A stretch of 43,600 nt of DNA from a virus. Position 1 is the first letter of the stretch; each line of letters opens with the position of its first letter. Shown here piece after piece: positions 9,493 to 27,949 of the stretch. The translations under genes were made by a program, and so were the position numbers. The notes beneath the pieces were generated by a model. It was not told the DNA's origin, searched no databases, and worked only from the letters and a program-made list of their open reading frames with translations. The DNA lies in the IMG/VR virus record IMGVR_UViG_3300020467_000001, positions 1-43,600 of that record; one strand, written 5' to 3'.

Positions 9493-9672
9493 TTATCTAT
9501 TACGCCAGTTGCTATTCCTTTTTGGTTCAATGCGAGCTAAATCCTGTTCTATTTTATTAAGTCGGTGGAATATTTCACGAATATCTCCTTGCCTTTTTGA
9601 CGATCTATTAGCAAGCACCATAAGCAAAGCACTTACCATTGCACCAATTAAAGCAGCATAAATTTCATGCAT
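9493..9672 (-). CDS. Small single-pass membrane protein, 59 aa (holin- or spanin-like candidate)
   Basis: 59 residues from ATG 9672. One membrane helix (YAALIGAMVSALLMVLA, about residues 5-21), then a charged helical tail (QGDIREIFHRLNKIEQDLAR). Overlaps the preceding gene by 8 bases (ATGCATGA), so the two are coupled. Small one-helix proteins of this shape act as pinholins or inner spanins in other phages, but nothing specific proves that here, and no endolysin is found nearby. Confidence 0.65.
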   Translation of the reverse strand: MHEIYAALIGAMVSALLMVLANRSSKRQGDIREIFHRLNKIEQDLARIEPKRNSNWRNR

Positions 9673-9904: not shown

Positions 9905-10378
9905 ATGGATGCCAAAGAAAAAGTCAAAAACCAAGCCAAGCAAGAAGAAAAAGAAAAAGTATTAGTTAAAGACGATCAGGATCAACCTGAGTACCAAGAA
10001 AAAATAATGTTTTTGGTATCTACAACAGCCCAGGGGGCTATTCTTTTTTGGTGTATATGTGTCTTGTCATTGGGATACATCAAACTTCCAACAAGGATGT
10101 TTGGAATGGATATTCCAGACCAGCCAAGAATCGACAGTACTTTTGCTGCAGGTCTCCTTGGGAATATTTTGGCTGGATGGGGAATTAGCGTAGGAGCCAA
10201 TAATGGCAACAAGAAAAAGAAAAAAGAGGAAGAAGCGTCTGGAGCTATACCAACAGCAGGAGGTTATCAAACTATTATTGTTAAACAGCCATTGGAACTT
10301 ATAGCCAAACAAGCTGAAGTCCAAAGGGTTGATCCAATAACTAATCGCTCTATAGGTGGAGACGGCAAGCTTCAATGA
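9905..10378 (+). CDS. Two-helix membrane protein (holin candidate)
   Basis: 157 residues from ATG 9905; the frame is open back to 9809, but that part is antisense to the leftward gene. A very charged N-terminus (KEKVKNQAKQEEKEKVLVKD), then two hydrophobic segments (IMFLVSTTAQGAILFWCICV and FAAGLLGNILAGWGISVGA), then a lysine/glutamate cluster and a polar tail. Two-helix topology with charged ends is usual for class II holins. First of four coupled genes whose other products carry signal peptides, so another envelope role is possible. Confidence 0.68.
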   Translation: MDAKEKVKNQAKQEEKEKVLVKDDQDQPEYQEKIMFLVSTTAQGAILFWCICVLSLGYIKLPTRMFGMDIPDQPRIDSTFAAGLLGNILAGWGISVGANNGNKKKKKEEEASGAIPTAGGYQTIIVKQPLELIAKQAEVQRVDPITNRSIGGDGKLQ

Positions 10379-10872
10379 AACGATTTCTTCTTTTGCTTTT
10401 ACTAGCTGCACCCGCTAATGCAGATATAGGAATAAAGCACACAACTTCAGCAAGCCTCAAAGTAGATGGAGCAGCAGTTCAAGCAATTAGGGTTCCATCA
10501 ACTTACGCGGTGTCAGGAAACAACATGAAGGTCACGACTGGCGAGCATTTCGGCAAGTTGACCGCTGGAACTGCTACAGCTGCAGCTACATTAGATGTGG
10601 GTGTTTACGAGATACACACTGCTGGAAGTGCATATTCTTTCGAAGAAAGCTGGCTCCAGGGCGATGCTATCCCAGCGATTGGAAGCGGTGTTGATGTCTC
10701 TGCAGGAGTTGTTGCTGACATGCCTGCCTTTGGTAATACTGTAGTAACTTCGGGCGGGGTTGCTGGAAATTTAGCAGGTTCTGTCCTAAGTTCTGGTGTA
10801 ATTTCTATTACTGCGGGAGGGGCTGGAACTACAGCGACGGCTCAATCAAGTTCAGAAATAAATGTTAAATAG
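10375..10872 (+). CDS. Secreted protein with signal peptide (paralogue of next gene)
   Basis: 165 residues. Signal peptide FLLLLLLAAPANA with cleavage probably after residue 16. Mature part is Ala/Gly/Thr/Ser/Val-rich and beta-like, with the segment TAGSAYSFEESW that recurs as TAGNAFSFTETL in the next gene. Starts by ATGA overlap. From memory similar small secreted proteins occur in marine cyanophages. It would act in the periplasm or on the cell surface, or be a fibre-like structural part; neither can be shown here. Confidence 0.7.
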   Translation: MKRFLLLLLLAAPANADIGIKHTTSASLKVDGAAVQAIRVPSTYAVSGNNMKVTTGEHFGKLTAGTATAAATLDVGVYEIHTAGSAYSFEESWLQGDAIPAIGSGVDVSAGVVADMPAFGNTVVTSGGVAGNLAGSVLSSGVISITAGGAGTTATAQSSSEINVK

Positions 10873-11318
10873 TGGGTAAAATATATAAGTTGTTACTGCT
10901 TATATCCTTTGCAGGAACTAGCGTTTCTGCTGTTCCCGTTGTGCCTACATTTTCTACAGGGACTTTAAATAGCAGACAAGAAACTAAAACTGTGGTAACA
11001 GAAACTATAACCTCAGTAGATTATAGATCAGGCTATGAATATGTTGTCTCAGGTCACAACATAGAGCCACTAAATACAAATACTATTTCACCTAAAGCTG
11101 TATTAAATACACCTCAAACTGTTGACGACATTACTTTCACATGGACATCAGTAGATGTAACTCCAGCAAACAAACCCGACTGGGGAATAAAAACTGCTGG
11201 CAACGCTTTTTCGTTTACAGAAACACTAGCAAATCCAGGCTTGTCAAATGTAACTACAATAAACAGAACAACAACTACAGAATCTTTAGTAGAGTCTGTA
11301 TCTGTCTTTACTCAATAA
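10872..11318 (+). CDS. Secreted protein with signal peptide (paralogue of previous gene)
   Basis: 148 residues, GTG start at 10872 sharing a base with the previous TAG. Signal peptide LLLLISFAGTSVSA, cleavage about residue 20. The mature part is threonine/valine-rich beta, with TAGNAFSFTETL shared with the previous protein, pointing to a tandem duplication. It overlaps the next frame, which is in the -1 register. Confidence 0.7.
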   Translation: MGKIYKLLLLISFAGTSVSAVPVVPTFSTGTLNSRQETKTVVTETITSVDYRSGYEYVVSGHNIEPLNTNTISPKAVLNTPQTVDDITFTWTSVDVTPANKPDWGIKTAGNAFSFTETLANPGLSNVTTINRTTTTESLVESVSVFTQ

Positions 11319-12001
11319 CATTTAGTCAACCAGTATTTGCAAATTCAACAACTATAGCCTCTCCTTCTGCGACATCACAAGGCAGTGTGATTAACCAAGG
11401 AATACAGGTTCAAAGTGGTAGCTTTATGTATCAAGAATTAGGTGATGGAATCCGTTGCAGCGGAACGACTTTAACCATTAATCCTTTTATTTCAAAAGTT
11501 AATACTTGGAAAGATCCGTTTGAACCTTATTACCAAGAAAATGTATATGACGACAGTACAGATGCAGACGGAAATTTAACTAATCCGGGTGGAGTTTTAT
11601 ATACAAAGCCAATCAGGACAGGACAGGCAAAAAATAACTTAAGCTTCAATTATGGTATAACTGCCACGATAGCTGTGCCTTTAGATCGCCGTATGGTTAA
11701 TAACTGCGTGGCTGCACAAACTAGCAGAGTTAAATATTTAGATCAAGCCTACAAAGCTAGAAAATTAGATTACGCTTTAAGCCGTTTAAAAATTTGTGCT
11801 GAGCAATTAAAATTGGGAGTATCATTTTTACCTAATTCGCCCTCATTTGTTGTCTGCGAGGATGTAACCCTAATTACGCCTCCTAATCAATTAATAGATC
11901 ATACTCATAGTATTAAATCAGAATCTACTTCAAGCGATTCTGACGCTGCTCAGTTCTCCTTTCAGAGAGGCTCTTTACAGGAGGAGTCTTTTTCCGAATA
12001 G
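11282..12001 (+). CDS. Secreted cyanophage-type protein, start codon unclear
   Basis: The frame is open from ATG 11141, but that start overlaps the previous gene by 178 bases and makes non-protein-like sequence. A typical signal peptide (FSRVCICLYSITFSQPVFA) begins at about 11282 with ATC and no ATG/GTG/TTG. From 11282 it is 239 residues. The mature part has TIASPSATSQGSV, WKDPFEPYYQENVYDDS and a helical stretch with several cysteines, resembling a protein conserved in marine cyanophages (from memory). A rare ATC start or a -1 frameshift from the previous gene may express it. Its last 77 bases overlap the opposing gene. Confidence 0.6.
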   Translation: MFSRVCICLYSITFSQPVFANSTTIASPSATSQGSVINQGIQVQSGSFMYQELGDGIRCSGTTLTINPFISKVNTWKDPFEPYYQENVYDDSTDADGNLTNPGGVLYTKPIRTGQAKNNLSFNYGITATIAVPLDRRMVNNCVAAQTSRVKYLDQAYKARKLDYALSRLKICAEQLKLGVSFLPNSPSFVVCEDVTLITPPNQLIDHTHSIKSESTSSDSDAAQFSFQRGSLQEESFSE

Positions 12002-12728
12002 CAAGCAATTTTTTAGTTAATTTTTTGGAAAAACTTTTGACTTTTCCTTTTAACTGCTTTTGAACAAATTTGGCTAGAGGCTGCCCAATAACAGTAACTC
12101 CAACAACAGAAGTAATAGCAATTGTTGATGTATTTACAAGAGTACTTGGTGGCGGCGTGTATGAATTAATGACATCAAATAACGCCCTATCTTGATAAAT
12201 AGTTTCACATAAATCACCATTTTTTTCATAGCGTAAAACAACCTTAGTTGAAAATTTGCCTGTAGCTCCGGGCGGAGGCGAGCCGGGTCTGGGACAAGGC
12301 AAGTCAATATTTTGATCTGTTTTTATTCCTGACAAATCAACTTTTGGAAGTTCTAAACCTTTTGCAAGGCTTTCTGTTTTTTGAGTTTCTTTTTCTTTTT
12401 TAGTTTCTGTTTTTGGTGTTTTTATATTTGGAGTAGGAGCAACTAATTCTGGTTCTTCTGCTTTCACAGGACCAACAGCAGAAAGACCTTCCCAATCAAT
12501 CGCCATGCTTTCCAATGTGGGTACATTGCCATCACAAAGGATCAAATTTCCTTTCTCATCATTTGTTACTAGCTGCTTATTTTTTAACGTCCTAGCCCTT
12601 ACACAGCCGGGCATTTGAATAACTGGAAAACCTATATTACTAGGAATTTGTGGACTTGATGTGCGAATTATTGTTGTATCAATTGAAGCGTCTGGTATTT
12701 CTCTAATTCCAATTTCTTCAATTTCCAT
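11925..12728 (-). CDS. Membrane-anchored protein with Pro/Lys-rich linker
   Basis: 267 residues. The N-terminal 80 residues contain two cysteines in MPGCVRARTLKNKQL and NLILCDGNVPT, likely one small domain. A long Pro/Lys/Glu/Thr linker follows (residues 90-125), then a beta part with GKFSTKVVLRYEKNG. One C-terminal membrane helix (STIAITSVVGVTVIG) precedes a very basic tail. The basic tail is probably cytoplasmic. It starts directly after the stop of 12729, in the leftward unit that begins at 14223. Function unknown. Confidence 0.68.
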   Translation of the reverse strand: MEIEEIGIREIPDASIDTTIIRTSSPQIPSNIGFPVIQMPGCVRARTLKNKQLVTNDEKGNLILCDGNVPTLESMAIDWEGLSAVGPVKAEEPELVAPTPNIKTPKTETKKEKETQKTESLAKGLELPKVDLSGIKTDQNIDLPCPRPGSPPPGATGKFSTKVVLRYEKNGDLCETIYQDRALFDVINSYTPPPSTLVNTSTIAITSVVGVTVIGQPLAKFVQKQLKGKVKSFSKKLTKKLLAIRKKTPPVKSLSERRTEQRQNRLK

Positions 12729-13286
12729 TTAGCAATCATTCCATTGACCAGCAAGATCACTTGCAACACTTCCTAACTGTTTTCGAGACTGACCAAAGAA
12801 GATTCCCGCCAATACTGGACCAATAATAGGAACGCTTGCAATGGCAGGTGTGACTTGAACAGAAGCAGCATCAGCAATCATCATCCCATTTGACTTGCCC
12901 TGTGCCATCTTTTCAATACAGGCAATCTGATCTGCTGTCAGTTTCCCGTCTGAACCTTTTGGATAAATTGCAAATTGAGCTACGTCTTGTTTATGAACAT
13001 ATTTCTTCTTAACTCCACCATTAAACGTAGGCTTGGAGTCATCAATAATTGTTGTAACTAGCTTTGGATCGTGCTGCTTAGAATTAAACATCCACTCCTC
13101 TGCACCGTCAGGTTTGGTCTCACTCCTAATTTGAATCGAACTGTAAGGAGTGTTAGAAAGCTTAGCTATATCAGGGATGCCTCCATCTTTTTTTGCAAGC
13201 ATGTTTAAGCTCATAAAATTACTTGCTATTAGTCCTGAAGCTAAAACAAGAGTAGAAAGGCCATTTAATGATTTGAATTGAATCAT
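12729..13286 (-). CDS. Exported or membrane protein, 185 aa
   Basis: 185 residues. N-terminal hydrophobic segment (LSTLVLASGLIASNFMSL, about 10-27) as signal or anchor, a polar middle, and a C-terminal hydrophobic stretch (VTPAIASVPIIGPVLAGIFF). The two apolar ends suggest a membrane protein with a periplasmic middle. Directly abuts the oxygenase-like gene upstream and the linker protein downstream. No family recognised. Confidence 0.68.
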   Translation of the reverse strand: MIQFKSLNGLSTLVLASGLIASNFMSLNMLAKKDGGIPDIAKLSNTPYSSIQIRSETKPDGAEEWMFNSKQHDPKLVTTIIDDSKPTFNGGVKKKYVHKQDVAQFAIYPKGSDGKLTADQIACIEKMAQGKSNGMMIADAASVQVTPAIASVPIIGPVLAGIFFGQSRKQLGSVASDLAGQWNDC

Positions 13287-13838
13287 TTACTTAAAGTAAT
13301 TGAAATTTAAAACAATCCTTGCTGGTTGATCTGTTGAACTAACTCCACTATGGTAGCAATTTCCTCTAAAAGTAAGCATACGATTTTCTATGCTTTCAAT
13401 TTTAGTTCCATCTAAAAATTCTGTATAACCATTATTAGTATTAATATAAAAAATTGAAGTGTAATTATCTTCAAAAGCATCAACATGAAAACCTGAAAGA
13501 ATATGATCTGTTGTTTGCGACGTTAAATTTGCTTTGATTTTAATTAACGCTTTTCCTTTTAAAAGATTGTAAATTGGTTCAATATAGTTTTGAAAATAAG
13601 TACATGTAGGAATATTATTATAATAAAATAAATGAACAAATTGATAATTAAAATTACTTTGGCAAAAAGATTGTTTAATTTTTTCTTTTACTTTTTTATT
13701 ATCTACTTGGGTTGATATTTCTTTATCCTCATCGTTTAAAATTTGACTAAAATGCCACGAAAACATTGGAGAAGTTATTAAATCTTTTACTTTTATAAAA
13801 TCATCTTGGTCTAAAAAATTATCTATACAACTAATCAT
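13287..13838 (-). CDS. 2OG-Fe(II) oxygenase-like protein
   Basis: 183 residues. The iron triad is visible: His118-x-Asp120 in GFHVD and distal His163 in CYHSG, with Arg174 eleven residues later as the likely 2-oxoglutarate anchor, in a double-stranded beta-helix context (TSIFYINTNNGYTEF). The family hydroxylates protein, nucleic-acid or small-molecule substrates; substrate here unknown. Overlaps its upstream neighbour by ATGA. Unlike the two oxygenase-like genes at 14299 and 14998, it is leftward and lies among membrane-protein genes. Confidence 0.8.
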   Translation of the reverse strand: MISCIDNFLDQDDFIKVKDLITSPMFSWHFSQILNDEDKEISTQVDNKKVKEKIKQSFCQSNFNYQFVHLFYYNNIPTCTYFQNYIEPIYNLLKGKALIKIKANLTSQTTDHILSGFHVDAFEDNYTSIFYINTNNGYTEFLDGTKIESIENRMLTFRGNCYHSGVSSTDQPARIVLNFNYFK

Positions 13839-14041
13839 CTTGCGAATGGATTAACACTGCCAGTAGAAGACGGAACGCTTGGAATTTCTGGCATAGCACT
13901 TTGTACCAAGGCAGGAAGTTCTTTCTTAACGCCATCTAATACAGCGTCAAATATTTTTGATCTGTAAAAAAAAGCCCCACCTAACCCTGCAACGCCAAGA
14001 ATAAAAGCAGCAAAATTAATCCAAGTAATAATTTTTATCAT
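13835..14041 (-). CDS. Small single-pass membrane protein, 68 aa
   Basis: 68 residues from ATG 14041 (a TTG at 14050 is in frame, but the ATGA overlap with the previous stop decides). One membrane helix (WINFAAFILGVAGLGGAFFY, about 7-26), then an amphipathic and proline-rich tail ending in NPFAR. From memory very similar small proteins occur in marine cyanomyoviruses. Could be a holin, spanin part or envelope factor. Confidence 0.7.
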   Translation of the reverse strand: MIKIITWINFAAFILGVAGLGGAFFYRSKIFDAVLDGVKKELPALVQSAMPEIPSVPSSTGSVNPFAR

Positions 14042-14223
14042 GCAGGGCAAGCCTCGCCATTGCTAGGTTTGTGGGCTTCTTTTGCCAAATTGTTTAGATC
14101 TTCTTTAAGTTTTACAACCCTTTCAGTGCTTTCTTTAAATCTATTTTGCAAATCAAGTTGAATTTGCTCCTCTTGAGCCATTTGTGCTCCAAGTTCTGCA
14201 AGGCGTTCCTGCATGTCAGCCAT
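14038..14223 (-). CDS. Coiled-coil protein, 61 aa
   Basis: 61 residues; continuous heptad pattern from residue 3 to about 50 (ERLAELGAQMAQEEQIQLDL; ERVVKLKEDLNNLAKEA). No membrane segment. First gene of the leftward unit 14223-11925, coupled to the membrane protein that follows. Faces the rightward gene 14299 across a shared inverted repeat. Confidence 0.7.
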   Translation of the reverse strand: MADMQERLAELGAQMAQEEQIQLDLQNRFKESTERVVKLKEDLNNLAKEAHKPSNGEACPA

Positions 14224-14298: not shown

Positions 14299-14997
14299 AT
14301 GAAATCTTTTCCTGTTTTATTTATTGATGATTTTTTCCCTGACGTTGAATACGTTTTAAATATTGCCAAAAACACAGAGTACGAAGTAAAACGTTCCAGT
14401 GCTACAGGTGTAACTTCAAGCTTAGGCTTAGAAAAATTAGATTTAGGATTGCATAACTACATAACAGAAAAAGTAATATCTATTTTTTGGCCTCCTAATG
14501 ACTACATCGCAAATTGCAATCTTACAATAGATTTTCATAAAATTGATTCTTTTAAATCAACAAATCAAACCTTTAACAAAGGAGCAATTCACTGTGACAA
14601 CGTTTTCGGAGCAGATCTTACTGTAATTATTTACTTAAGCGACCATAAAGAAACTAATGTAGGAACAAGTTTTTACGAAAGAAAACAAGATGTCTTTCTG
14701 CAAGGACATACTTATGTAGAAGACTTTCAAAATGCTTTACAAGCATATAATCAAGATAAAGAAATAACAGAAGAAAGAGAAATTATTTTTAATAAATACT
14801 TTGATAACTTTAAAGAAACCGCAAAAATTCAAAACAAACAAAACAGAGCTGTTATTTTTCCATCTAACCTCTGGCATGGTGTAACATCTTTTACAGAAGA
14901 AACAAGGTATGTAGCAAGATTAATACTTTTCCCGTCTAATGTTCAATGTAAATATAACAATAACTATTCAATAAATCCATTAGACAGAATTAATTAA
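14299..14997 (+). CDS. 2OG-Fe(II) oxygenase-like protein (DUF6445-like), copy 1
   Basis: 232 residues. Opens with FPVLFIDDFFPD, then a beta core with the iron triad His98-x-Asp100 (AIHCD), GTSFYE, distal His193 (LWHG) and Arg207 (VARLIL) as cosubstrate anchor. Resembles, from memory, the DUF6445 group of the 2OG-oxygenase superfamily seen in marine phages. Ends in the base before the ATG of its paralogue. Substrate unknown; modification of phage fibre or host surface is a guess. Confidence 0.8.
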   Translation: MKSFPVLFIDDFFPDVEYVLNIAKNTEYEVKRSSATGVTSSLGLEKLDLGLHNYITEKVISIFWPPNDYIANCNLTIDFHKIDSFKSTNQTFNKGAIHCDNVFGADLTVIIYLSDHKETNVGTSFYERKQDVFLQGHTYVEDFQNALQAYNQDKEITEEREIIFNKYFDNFKETAKIQNKQNRAVIFPSNLWHGVTSFTEETRYVARLILFPSNVQCKYNNNYSINPLDRIN

Positions 14998-15675
14998 ATG
15001 TCTTTCCCTGTTACTGTTGTAGACAATTTTTTCCCTGATCCAGAAAAAATTATTGAATTTTCTAATACTCTTAAATATGTAAAAGATGAATATGGTGGCG
15101 GCAGATGGCCTGGAATAAGATGTGATAATTTAGCAACTATTAACGACCAACGATGTTATGATTTTGGTCAATATGTTATTAGAAAAGTAAATAGTTTATT
15201 TTGGCAAGACCAAGTTGAAAATACGGTTGCTTCATTACATTTTCAAAAAATTAAACCTTTTGTAAAAGAAAAAAAAGATCAATTTGATCCTACAAATACA
15301 GGATGGATACACAAAGATTACAAACAGCTTGCAGGATTAGTTTATCTTTCTAAAGATCCTCAAGAAAACACAGGAACATCTATTTATAATTTTAAAAATG
15401 GTATTTATAATTATTATCAAGAAGACTTAAACTATAAAAGAAAGCTTTACAGTGGAAAACCTTTTGACAAAAAAGAATATATAAAAGCTTTTGAACGTAA
15501 TCAATCGTATTTTTATGAAACAATAAATATAAAAAACGTATATAACAGATTACTTTTGTTTAATGGACAACAATTTCATGCTGCACAAACATTTGGTTAT
15601 GGAGAAAAAGAACGATTAACTTTAAATATTTTTATAGATGATCATTTCCCAGCCACACCTCCATTTGCAAGATAG
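14998..15675 (+). CDS. 2OG-Fe(II) oxygenase-like protein (DUF6445-like), copy 2
   Basis: 225 residues, clear paralogue of 14299: FPVTVVDNFFPDPEKI start, His105-x-Asp107 (WIHKD), GTSIYNF, distal His194 (QQFHA), Arg206. All metal ligands are kept, so both copies may be active on different substrates. Directly adjacent to copy 1; followed by a terminator-like hairpin. Confidence 0.8.
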   Translation: MSFPVTVVDNFFPDPEKIIEFSNTLKYVKDEYGGGRWPGIRCDNLATINDQRCYDFGQYVIRKVNSLFWQDQVENTVASLHFQKIKPFVKEKKDQFDPTNTGWIHKDYKQLAGLVYLSKDPQENTGTSIYNFKNGIYNYYQEDLNYKRKLYSGKPFDKKEYIKAFERNQSYFYETINIKNVYNRLLLFNGQQFHAAQTFGYGEKERLTLNIFIDDHFPATPPFAR

Positions 15676-26400: not shown

Positions 26401-27626
26401 GTTGAACCAACCATATACTGCTCACCTATTGCAATATAGGAATCAGTAGCTTCTCTAACTGTTTTAGTTGCAGAATTAATATCCTCAACCCCATGAGGAT
26501 CCATTGTTAAATTTACATCGCCACTATCTTGTTGATACCCAATTCCTTCATACAAGCCAAGTCTTCCGCTACCTACTATTTGGTATGTCAAAGAACTTCC
26601 AACAGTTGCATCAGCACTACCTGATTGCTGGAGAGCGGTTCCAGAATTAACAAAGCCTGCTCTCATAGGCCATGCACCAAGTAGTTTTCTTCTTTTTTTG
26701 TAAGTTATTCTTCCTGCTGGCCTATAATCAGAACCACTAACATCACTACGAGTCCTAACTAATTGATAAGGCAACTTATAAGCAGTAGCATTAGGTACTG
26801 GATTACTTAAACCAAATGTTGCTTGTGTCGTAGGGTTTCTTGTTCCAGAAAAATGTTTTTTATTATCAATTTTAAAAATATCATTAGGAATAATGCCTCC
26901 ATCTCTTAAAAAAGGAATATTGTTTCCTGAATGTCCATATCCATCATTTGAATAATTAAGCTTATAAATTTTATCTGAATGGTAGTTTTCTATTAATAAA
27001 TCTCCTATTGCATAACCTTTAAAATCTGGTCTTTTAGCTATTTCACCTAAAGAAAATAAAGCAAGTATTTTTAATTGTTGGTATCTTCCTAAACTAACCA
27101 TCTGTGACCAAATAAGTTGTGAATTAACACGGATACCTCCGTAAGAAATTCCACTTATTGTTTGGCGATTAGTAAAAATAAGAGGTATTAAATCTCCTAA
27201 GTTTGCTAAATCTTGAACACTATTAAAACTAAATTGCGGTGCAAACTTCTTAGTACCACCTATGTCTGCTGTTCTTTCTTGTGTACCTTGTCTTTGACTT
27301 GGTGGCTTTGGTGCTAATAAAACACTAGCAGCAGTTAAAGCAACACCAACAGCAACTTGTCCAAGAAAAGTGAGGCTACCACCCGACCAAAAAGCCCCTA
27401 TAACAGCAGGACCAGCAACAAGATCAGGTACTAAGCCATAGGCTTCTGGACGTTCTTTTACTTTTGCTGCTACACCTTCTAAAAATTGAAAATATTCTTC
27501 TTCTGTTATTCCAAGTGCATTGCAAAGGTCGGCTTCCGTTGGAAGTAACACCCTGCGAGTAAAAGGGCTTCTAGCGGCGACCATTTCACCACCAACTTTC
27601 CTAATGTTTTTTGATAACTCAGCCAT
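23490..27626 (-). CDS. Tail tip/central hub protein, gpJ-like, with gpI-like N-terminus
   Basis: 1378 residues. The N-terminal 130 residues contain a glycine/alanine-rich hydrophobic segment (FLGQVAVGVALTAASVLLAP) typical of the separate lambda gpI assembly protein, so I- and J-like parts appear fused. The large remainder has gpJ-type tip regions (PLIFTNRQTISGISYGG; later INGVRPGDYIRVFST) with many beta domains. It closes the tail tube and contacts the host. Its first 121 bases overlap the NlpC/P60-like gene in another frame. Confidence 0.85.
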   Translation of the reverse strand: MAELSKNIRKVGGEMVAARSPFTRRVLLPTEADLCNALGITEEEYFQFLEGVAAKVKERPEAYGLVPDLVAGPAVIGAFWSGGSLTFLGQVAVGVALTAASVLLAPKPPSQRQGTQERTADIGGTKKFAPQFSFNSVQDLANLGDLIPLIFTNRQTISGISYGGIRVNSQLIWSQMVSLGRYQQLKILALFSLGEIAKRPDFKGYAIGDLLIENYHSDKIYKLNYSNDGYGHSGNNIPFLRDGGIIPNDIFKIDNKKHFSGTRNPTTQATFGLSNPVPNATAYKLPYQLVRTRSDVSGSDYRPAGRITYKKRRKLLGAWPMRAGFVNSGTALQQSGSADATVGSSLTYQIVGSGRLGLYEGIGYQQDSGDVNLTMDPHGVEDINSATKTVREATDSYIAIGEQYMVGSTLVTCTQILEDNLPVNGRAWDGTKTRSIGFKVIETGRYESINNTTHGLGPHCGNPYWNTNGDFFTVRPGTNKDDKFYYEQNYTDIFNPSSRYTLQKATLGTISNNRKCHITEIGIKSKVFKEIQFANVNSKPTEEKIYEIYDHNSSLQLGNVNKFITRYSFFKLQVRKVGENTWNWLKPSTNLNVHTGLFCVKGNTPEFQYNYIRIDQPALDQYEYRFFPWPGAAVVKEVQAYDARQRHNPVNTILLNANGARTAGSIDKFTCRVNGEDFAVEFAGDTYHALSKQNLSNTEWNLGAPNKVKIGNASYQVTGFQTTSAGSRDDYSITNLPIARPSQRIFTNKLYYPGFGGYVSGSGANHTVIVRWDNYPRSGWTTWSLYINKADVTPNIQGLDGPAWANAQVRQPGDNTAVEFHYTTLDGRGGKFTPGTNQTSNKYGVTKDEQKLLTATPSFSGEVNVKKLSGGDGYGLKADVTVYSLGDEWFAQWSLSDVGQGYSNNQTVYLDKDDINLPSGATDIRFNVNVNTSSSSIYSDEIGSAELNPYDAAADFWQYEGDRSSHLDGPEHQITYCNEIVETEGSRAVGNPATYQDLAYAGLRINSSKEWTNFSQFSAYFKEGVKVKSLIDGNRKATNLFPEIAYALLTDKTLGAGAVIGEDSVDDENMEIAAKFCKANKLFWDGMISSRVNLREFIYQQAIYCLLDFTIIGGKFSLFPAVPYNNDFTINLEGKPKIKAMFTDGNISDLSVSFLSPEDRQSFKVNVLYRQEQENGFPETKSAIIRLFGTDHVDDPLETFDLSGFCTSREAAILFAKYTLVLRKHLDHTVSFKTAPHYINGVRPGDYIRVFSTTQHVQRFNNGAILEDGTVVSKDTISGSKTFYYWNPSTIVAGEIMPVTEATVDFSNTNAVKAFAGSLFTIKESEASDQCYKVESITFGDDGLVELTGSYAELTADGKLAMLQNWSNSNTQIFSDED

Positions 27627-27949
27627 CCTTCCTCATAAAAAGCTGCCATGCCATAACCATCATCTGATTTGCATAAGCCAATTGTTCCTAGTTTAGGGGG
27701 TGATTCAACTCCCCACCTATTTAATTCTTCAAAAAAGATACTATAGTCTTTTCTTTTTAATCTTCGATACCAATTACGCTCTCCTTTTGGAACAGTAAAA
27801 CCATAGTGACCCAATACTGTACGAACTAAAGATAAGCAATCTCCAGTGCCATGTTTTATAGGATCAGACCCTAAACGATACTCAAGACCTATTAATTCGT
27901 AAGGCTTCAAAGATTCTGTAATTGACCTGTTAAAGGAAGATGAGAACAC
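27506..27949 (-). CDS. NlpC/P60-like tail protein, catalytic His not seen
   Basis: 147 residues. GTGDCLSLVRTVLGHYG carries the Cys38 and following helix of NlpC/P60 peptidases (lambda gpK-like). At the usual His-Val/Gly site the sequence is DDGYGMAAFYEEG, with no His, so peptidase activity is doubtful and a structural role is possible. The order after the gpL-like and before the gpJ-like gene matches lambda. It overlaps both neighbours (43 and 121 bases). Confidence 0.8.
   Translation of the reverse strand: MFSSSFNRSITESLKPYELIGLEYRLGSDPIKHGTGDCLSLVRTVLGHYGFTVPKGERNWYRRLKRKDYSIFFEELNRWGVESPPKLGTIGLCKSDDGYGMAAFYEEGWLSYQKTLGKLVVKWSPLEALLLAGCYFQRKPTFAMHLE

Follow-up and report, generated by a model that had tools for sequence, protein, structure and literature searches.

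The virus record IMGVR_UViG_3300020467_000001, positions 1 to 43,600 of which form the whole stretch of DNA analysed here (the window, 43.6 kb), contains an island at 9905–14223 that encodes small membrane and exported proteins. We found that most of these genes belong to a cassette shared by cyanophages of sipho-, podo- and myovirus type. That the cassette acts at the host envelope is well supported, and we tentatively favour the reading that it is a module for disrupting that envelope during lysis and egress. The record is probably a complete genome, since it has a direct terminal repeat of 77 bp and a dcm-type gene that spans its two ends. For the large terminase, the nearest relatives are those of the cyanosiphoviruses S-H1, MED4-184/P-HS2, MED4-117 and KBS-S-2A (51–53% identity).

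The island comprises nine open reading frames (ORFs), four on the plus strand starting at 9905, 10375, 10872 and 11282 (A to D) and five on the minus strand between 11925 and 14223 (E to I). Almost all of them abut or overlap, and the two halves are convergent with a tail-to-tail overlap of 77 bp (11925–12001), which bears out the two tight, facing operons of the preliminary description. The signal peptides that it placed at 10375, 10872 and 11282 can be seen by eye as signal-peptide-like N-termini with AxA-type sites in B (PANA), C (SVSA) and D (PVFA), and its membrane helices at 9905, 11925, 12729 and 13835 are likewise present as transmembrane (TM) segments in A, E, F (which has two) and H. 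Using a 19-residue mean hydropathy of at least 1.5 as the cut-off, a TM-like segment is encoded by five of the nine island genes and by 9 of 59 genes genome-wide (hypergeometric P = 0.0024). This test is conservative because the signal peptides of B and D score under the cut-off. The island gene arrangement recurs in hundreds of related contigs, and this recurrence is a stronger argument against chance than the hydropathy test. Scans for promoters, terminators and RNAs gave nothing above chance, and a DNA-level search of the island against phages returned a short match to an oxygenase-like gene only.

A tblastn search with D matched 440 phage records, nearly all of which are named as Synechococcus, Prochlorococcus or unspecified cyanophages, the rest being 'Marine', uncultured or Tiamatvirus. 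Five scans of IMG/VR, seeded with D proteins of different phage types, yielded 400 contigs, from which 80–82 D-positive loci per group were counted, partial contigs included; as every locus was chosen for D, the counts show gene company and not abundance. The shared synteny in cyanophages that had been proposed as a check was indeed found, the cassette recurring in all five lineages sampled in this way: window-like siphoviruses (A in 62 loci, B in 71, C in 77, E in 79, F in 69 and H in 62), P-HS2-like siphoviruses (A 66, B 73, C 78, E 80, F 0, H 76), T7-like podoviruses (A 66, B 0, C 77, E 50, F 0, H 0), marine T4-like myoviruses (A 55, B 72, C 76, E 75, F 56, H 58) and freshwater T4-like myoviruses (A 68, B 71, C 78, E 1, F 1, H 7). 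Since A and C accompany D in most loci of all five groups, D, C and A are the shared core of the cassette. F and H are restricted to some lineages, D and E are mostly convergent, and in the freshwater loci the places of E and H are taken by another family of Pro-rich TM proteins and by a small TM protein resembling H. The reference records S37C6, P-HS2, P-SSM4, NATL1A-7, S-TIM5, S-RIP2, P-SSP3, DSL-LC03, S-RIM2, P-SSM2 and S-SM1 are in agreement with these patterns. Gene content and order, the signal peptides, the TM segments and the sharing across phage types are read from the sequences themselves.

A tree of D sorts the groups by phage type with one exception: the autographivirid S37C6 is placed with the siphoviruses (support 100/98), apart from the other podoviruses. 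One transfer of the cassette between tail types is therefore probable, although not proved because the S37C6 branch is long. When genome contigs were searched, E gave no match and D matched 15 contigs, all with other cassette genes, which are most simply phage contigs in single-amplified genomes and metagenome-assembled genomes.

The holin gene of coliphage T7, which encodes gp17.5, lies between the genes for the tail fibre and the small terminase. The order in P-SSP3 is tail fibre, a 59-aa gene, E, A, C, D and small terminase, and the same small-terminase family directly follows D in 63 of 80 podovirus loci. Among freshwater T4-like loci with 7 kb of sequence after D, 24 of 31 have endolysins (PF00959 lysozyme and C39-type peptidase) on the strand of A and no more than 7 kb after D; before D, they were found in 0 of 26 loci. 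Searches of the window, S37C6, P-HS2, NATL1A-7, S-RIP2 and P-SSP3 gave no match to phrog_7 or to eight endolysin Pfam families (Phage_lysozyme, Amidase_2, Peptidase_M15_3, Phage_lysozyme2, Peptidase_C39_2, NLPC_P60, SLT and Peptidase_M23), so that the earlier remark that no endolysin was recognised in this genome is supported for these families only. Lysis is tentatively the best explanation, in that it joins the T7 holin position, the freshwater endolysin linkage, the absence of the endolysin families and the sharing across tail types. The holin-like topology of A, the predicted beta ribbon of C, the four invariant cysteines of D and the lack of structural labels on the cassette genes in the S-SM1 and S-TIM5 records also count in its favour. 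The preliminary description had offered lysis, superinfection exclusion or surface modification; the first of these gains circumstantial support, while nothing was found that specifically favours the other two.

On the minus side of the cassette, L405:2509-3252 (minus strand) and its relatives encode an exported protein with an HEGWH (HExxH) motif, found in 21 of the 31 freshwater loci with sufficient sequence and in 6 of the 34 such marine T4-like loci; it has no Pfam match and is possibly an envelope protease. An XhlA-like gene beside A in some relatives fell below the Pfam cut-off (E = 0.026) and was not used. The window also encodes, at 27506–27949 between tape-measure-like and J-like genes, a 147-aa protein with a lambda-K/NlpC look by eye and no match in Pfam, PHROG or the phage collection.

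Several results weigh against a role in lysis. Linkage to endolysins was seen in only 1 of 34 marine T4-like loci, and that of the freshwater loci could be the inherited synteny of one lineage. None of the cassette proteins matches a known holin, spanin, endolysin or other recognised enzyme, and a scan of 43 A members gave no match to a holin family. The signal peptides of B, C and D have AxA-type sites without a lipobox, and neither an i-spanin/o-spanin lipoprotein pair nor a u-spanin was found; in E, compared here with spanins, the TM segment is at the C-terminal side. In the stretch of S-CREM2 that was examined there is a C39/lysozyme cluster without cassette genes, and S-PM2 lacks the T4-GC cluster, the name under which the cassette was described in T4-like cyanophages (Sullivan et al., 2010; PMC3037559). 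Hence not every cyanomyovirus requires the cassette. Neither expression nor knockout data on it were found.

Structure models bear on the possible mechanism. The model of C (predicted local distance difference test, pLDDT, 81) has beta strands at residues 30–52 and 123–146, each of 23–24 residues, and C is accordingly predicted to form a long beta ribbon. D is modelled as a beta-rich part plus a 42-residue helix, and here the poor quality of the model (pLDDT 68) also counts against the lysis reading, as does the finding that fold searches with C and D against the Protein Data Bank (PDB) gave no match at E ≤ 0.001. The best PDB fold match of C has E = 0.018, its weak matches include phage collars, lysenin and binary-toxin pores, and none to aerolysin-type or other beta-hairpin pore-forming proteins is significant; the fold matches of D are weaker than those of C. 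The recurrence of pores and rings among these weak matches of the models is only a hint. Against BFVD, C matched cyanophage proteins without a functional name, and profile searches of PDB sequences with D, C, A and E returned nothing credible.

If the cassette is a lysis module, it would open the host envelope, probably late in infection. A, whose topology in sequence is like that of a holin, would form a hairpin in the inner membrane. The exported B, C and D may build beta-rich rings or pores, located either in the periplasm or in the outer membrane, and the Pro-rich, membrane-anchored E, together with F and H, might join the inner membrane to this B–C–D layer. From the positive-inside rule we would guess that the Pro-rich N-terminus of E is outside and its basic tail inside. 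Failure of the inner membrane would then lead to rupture of the outer membrane, with or without a peptidoglycan hydrolase. A bolder version, in which cyanophages of all tail types use a lysis machine unrelated to holin–endolysin–spanin systems, built of a hairpin protein, a Pro-rich linker and beta-ribbon outer-membrane pores, and in which the smallest phages are released without a dedicated peptidoglycan hydrolase, is conceivable but rather unlikely.

Other functions at the envelope must be weighed. The cassette might instead serve superinfection exclusion or envelope remodelling, by blocking or altering the receptors or DNA-entry path of later phages or by changing the cell surface. All core proteins are membrane or exported proteins, and the phages that carry the cassette differ in tail type but have hosts in common, as expected of a shared exclusion system. 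Classical exclusion systems, such as T4 Imm/Sp and T5 Llp, consist of one or two proteins, however, whereas the cassette has five to seven; the core proteins have no PADLOC match, and exclusion leaves both the placement at the holin position and the endolysin linkage unexplained. We therefore consider it unlikely.

The layered design of inner-membrane proteins, Pro-rich linker and exported beta-rich proteins would also suit a trans-envelope channel, made of A, F and H with linker E and B, C and D, that acts not in lysis but in non-lytic release, vesicle formation or the exchange of nutrients or metabolites. The weak pore- and ring-like fold matches of C and D are in line with this, as are the invariant residues of D and C, which have no catalytic pattern. 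The fold matches are not significant, however, and the freshwater endolysin linkage favours lysis, which makes such a channel quite unlikely.

We regard it as improbable that the cassette encodes virion-associated proteins, for a minor tail role or envelope penetration, that merely have signal-like N-termini. The cassette does lie near tail-fibre or structural genes in the window, in S-TIM5 and in the T7-like relatives, but its occurrence in sipho-, podo- and myoviruses speaks against a structural role tied to one kind of tail. The records of S-SM1 and S-TIM5 label other genes structural and the cassette genes not; Sullivan et al. (2010; PMC3037559) call the cluster hypothetical, after a virion proteome of S-SM1 with 41 proteins. 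The S-CREM2 virion proteins ORF174 and ORF176 were considered as C and D and ruled out, not being homologous. Finally, published work (PMC3037559, PMC9602691) has suggested a selfish or mobile cassette that the 'plasmid stability' gene H would stabilise, which is in keeping with a variable position and the one probable cross-morphotype transfer. This reading is very improbable, because the argument built on H is weak when the name has no domain support: H is a small single-TM protein without a plasmid-stability or DNA-binding Pfam match in the five homologues scanned, and it was not found in T7-like carriers.

Individually, the core proteins match PHROG families without a function or with a doubtful name; in Pfam, A to H score above cut-off with DUF6450 and DUF6322 alone, and none of these eight has an NCBIfam match. 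A (9905–10378, plus strand; DUF6450, phrog_2714/721; T4-GC 218 in myoviruses) is an inner-membrane protein with a strong TM helix and a second, weaker one, basic residues at both termini and the invariant residues W49, Y58, D77, F80 and A82. Upstream of it, at 9493–9672 on the minus strand, is a gene for a 59-aa protein with one N-terminal TM helix, which dozens of window-type relatives share and for which the one relative scanned gave no Pfam match. B (10375–10872, plus; phrog_564, T4-GC 237) is a remote paralogue of C (10872–11318, plus; DUF6322, phrog_650, T4-GC 236), which begins with GTG and has a conserved C-terminus ending F-x-Q.

D ('gp165'; 11282–12001, plus; phrog_848/1755, T4-GC 235) has four invariant cysteines. 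The exported protein described at 11282 is real, but the codon there is ATC, a non-standard start. In 41 of 50 scorable window-type relatives the 30 codons before the signal peptide contain no ATG, GTG or TTG, and translation could start at a conserved isoleucine codon or depend on coupling or frameshifting from C; a distant relative, L067, has a normal ATG at the position of this start (window 11230–11345). The C-terminus of D in P-SSP3 matches phrog_2738/402, and in several siphovirus-type loci a short protein resembling it has a gene of its own close to the cassette (L088:19953-20663, L061:342-563).

The antiparallel 3'-end overlap of D and E (11925–12001, both strands) recurs as a convergent overlap in window-type relatives and in most marine T4-like relatives. 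E ('gp164'; 11925–12728, minus; phrog_570, T4-GC 234) is Pro-rich, with one TM helix near the C-terminus followed by a basic tail, and F (12729–13286, minus; phrog_605, T4-GC 219) has its TM segments at the N- and C-terminal ends. The most likely start of H (13835–14041, minus; phrog_568/T4-GC 414) is at 14041 (MIK...), matching the start in relatives.

G and I are not constant parts of the cassette. The assignment of G (13287–13838, minus; phrog_274, named 'endonuclease V') as an HxD oxygenase holds at the level of the family only, and the gene is an optional neighbour. It is one of three oxygenase-like proteins in or beside the island, with those at 14299–14997 and 14998–15675, and the PHROG names 'DNA endonuclease V' (phrog_274) and 'minor coat protein' (phrog_1644) fit poorly with their DUF6445 and 2OG-Fe(II) matches. 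The coiled coil noted earlier is that of I (14038–14223, minus), a short coiled-coil-like peptide of 61 aa found in few relatives, with a weak match to phrog_937 ('hemolysin', E = 0.007).

Lysis of picocyanobacteria drives the release of carbon in the ocean, and among the families searched no lysis gene can be named in six small cyanophage genomes that carry the cassette. The cassette, which podo-, sipho- and myoviruses all retain and which in T7-like phages stands at the T7 holin position, is a testable candidate, and gene deletion in cyanophages is now feasible with REEP, which works on S-TIP37, Syn5 and Syn9 (PMC8776855). The current names 'plasmid stability' for H and 'endonuclease V' for G are called into question.

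The cassette is in part already known and, as a genomic feature, is not new. Sullivan et al. (2010; PMC3037559) reported that 15 of 16 cyanomyoviruses carry a cluster of T4-GC 218, 219, 234, 235 and 237, to which a 'plasmid stability' gene is often added. They suggested a functional link within the cluster and possible mobility, without giving a function. Profiles started from the window map A, H, F, E, D, C and B one-to-one on SSM1_163–169 (E values from 7e-22 to 6e-77), which are annotated as GC 218, 414, 219 and 234–237. Homologues, clustering and facing orientation all agree with membership of this cluster, B, C and D facing E, F and H as in most T4-like loci. The window differs in being a 43.6-kb siphovirus in which A heads the B–C–D operon and is not on the E–F–H strand, and in which G and I are inserted. 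No description of the cassette in siphoviruses or T7-like phages, of its position there or of the freshwater endolysin linkage was found in the literature searched, which covers part of the cyanophage papers. The cassettes of P-HS2 and S37C6 share with the window the order A, B, C, D facing E, and P-HS2 also has H, whereas F was not found in either and their D is ~33–42% identical to that of the window. T7-like cyanophages (P-SSP3, S-RIP2 and NATL1A-7) have homologues of A, C and D in the segment between fibre and small terminase, and E, as in the window, is present in P-SSP3 as well as in 50 of the 80 podovirus loci; in contrast to the window, B, F and H were not found there, the genes are on a single strand and E is shortened to ~103–143 aa. 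From the 17.5 holin and 18.5–18.7 spanin locus of coliphage T7 the cassette differs in that no sequence relation was found, in lacking a lipoprotein o-spanin and in having extra exported proteins, but it resembles that locus in its genome position in the T7-like cyanophages and in the TM layout of A, which is similar to that of a small holin.

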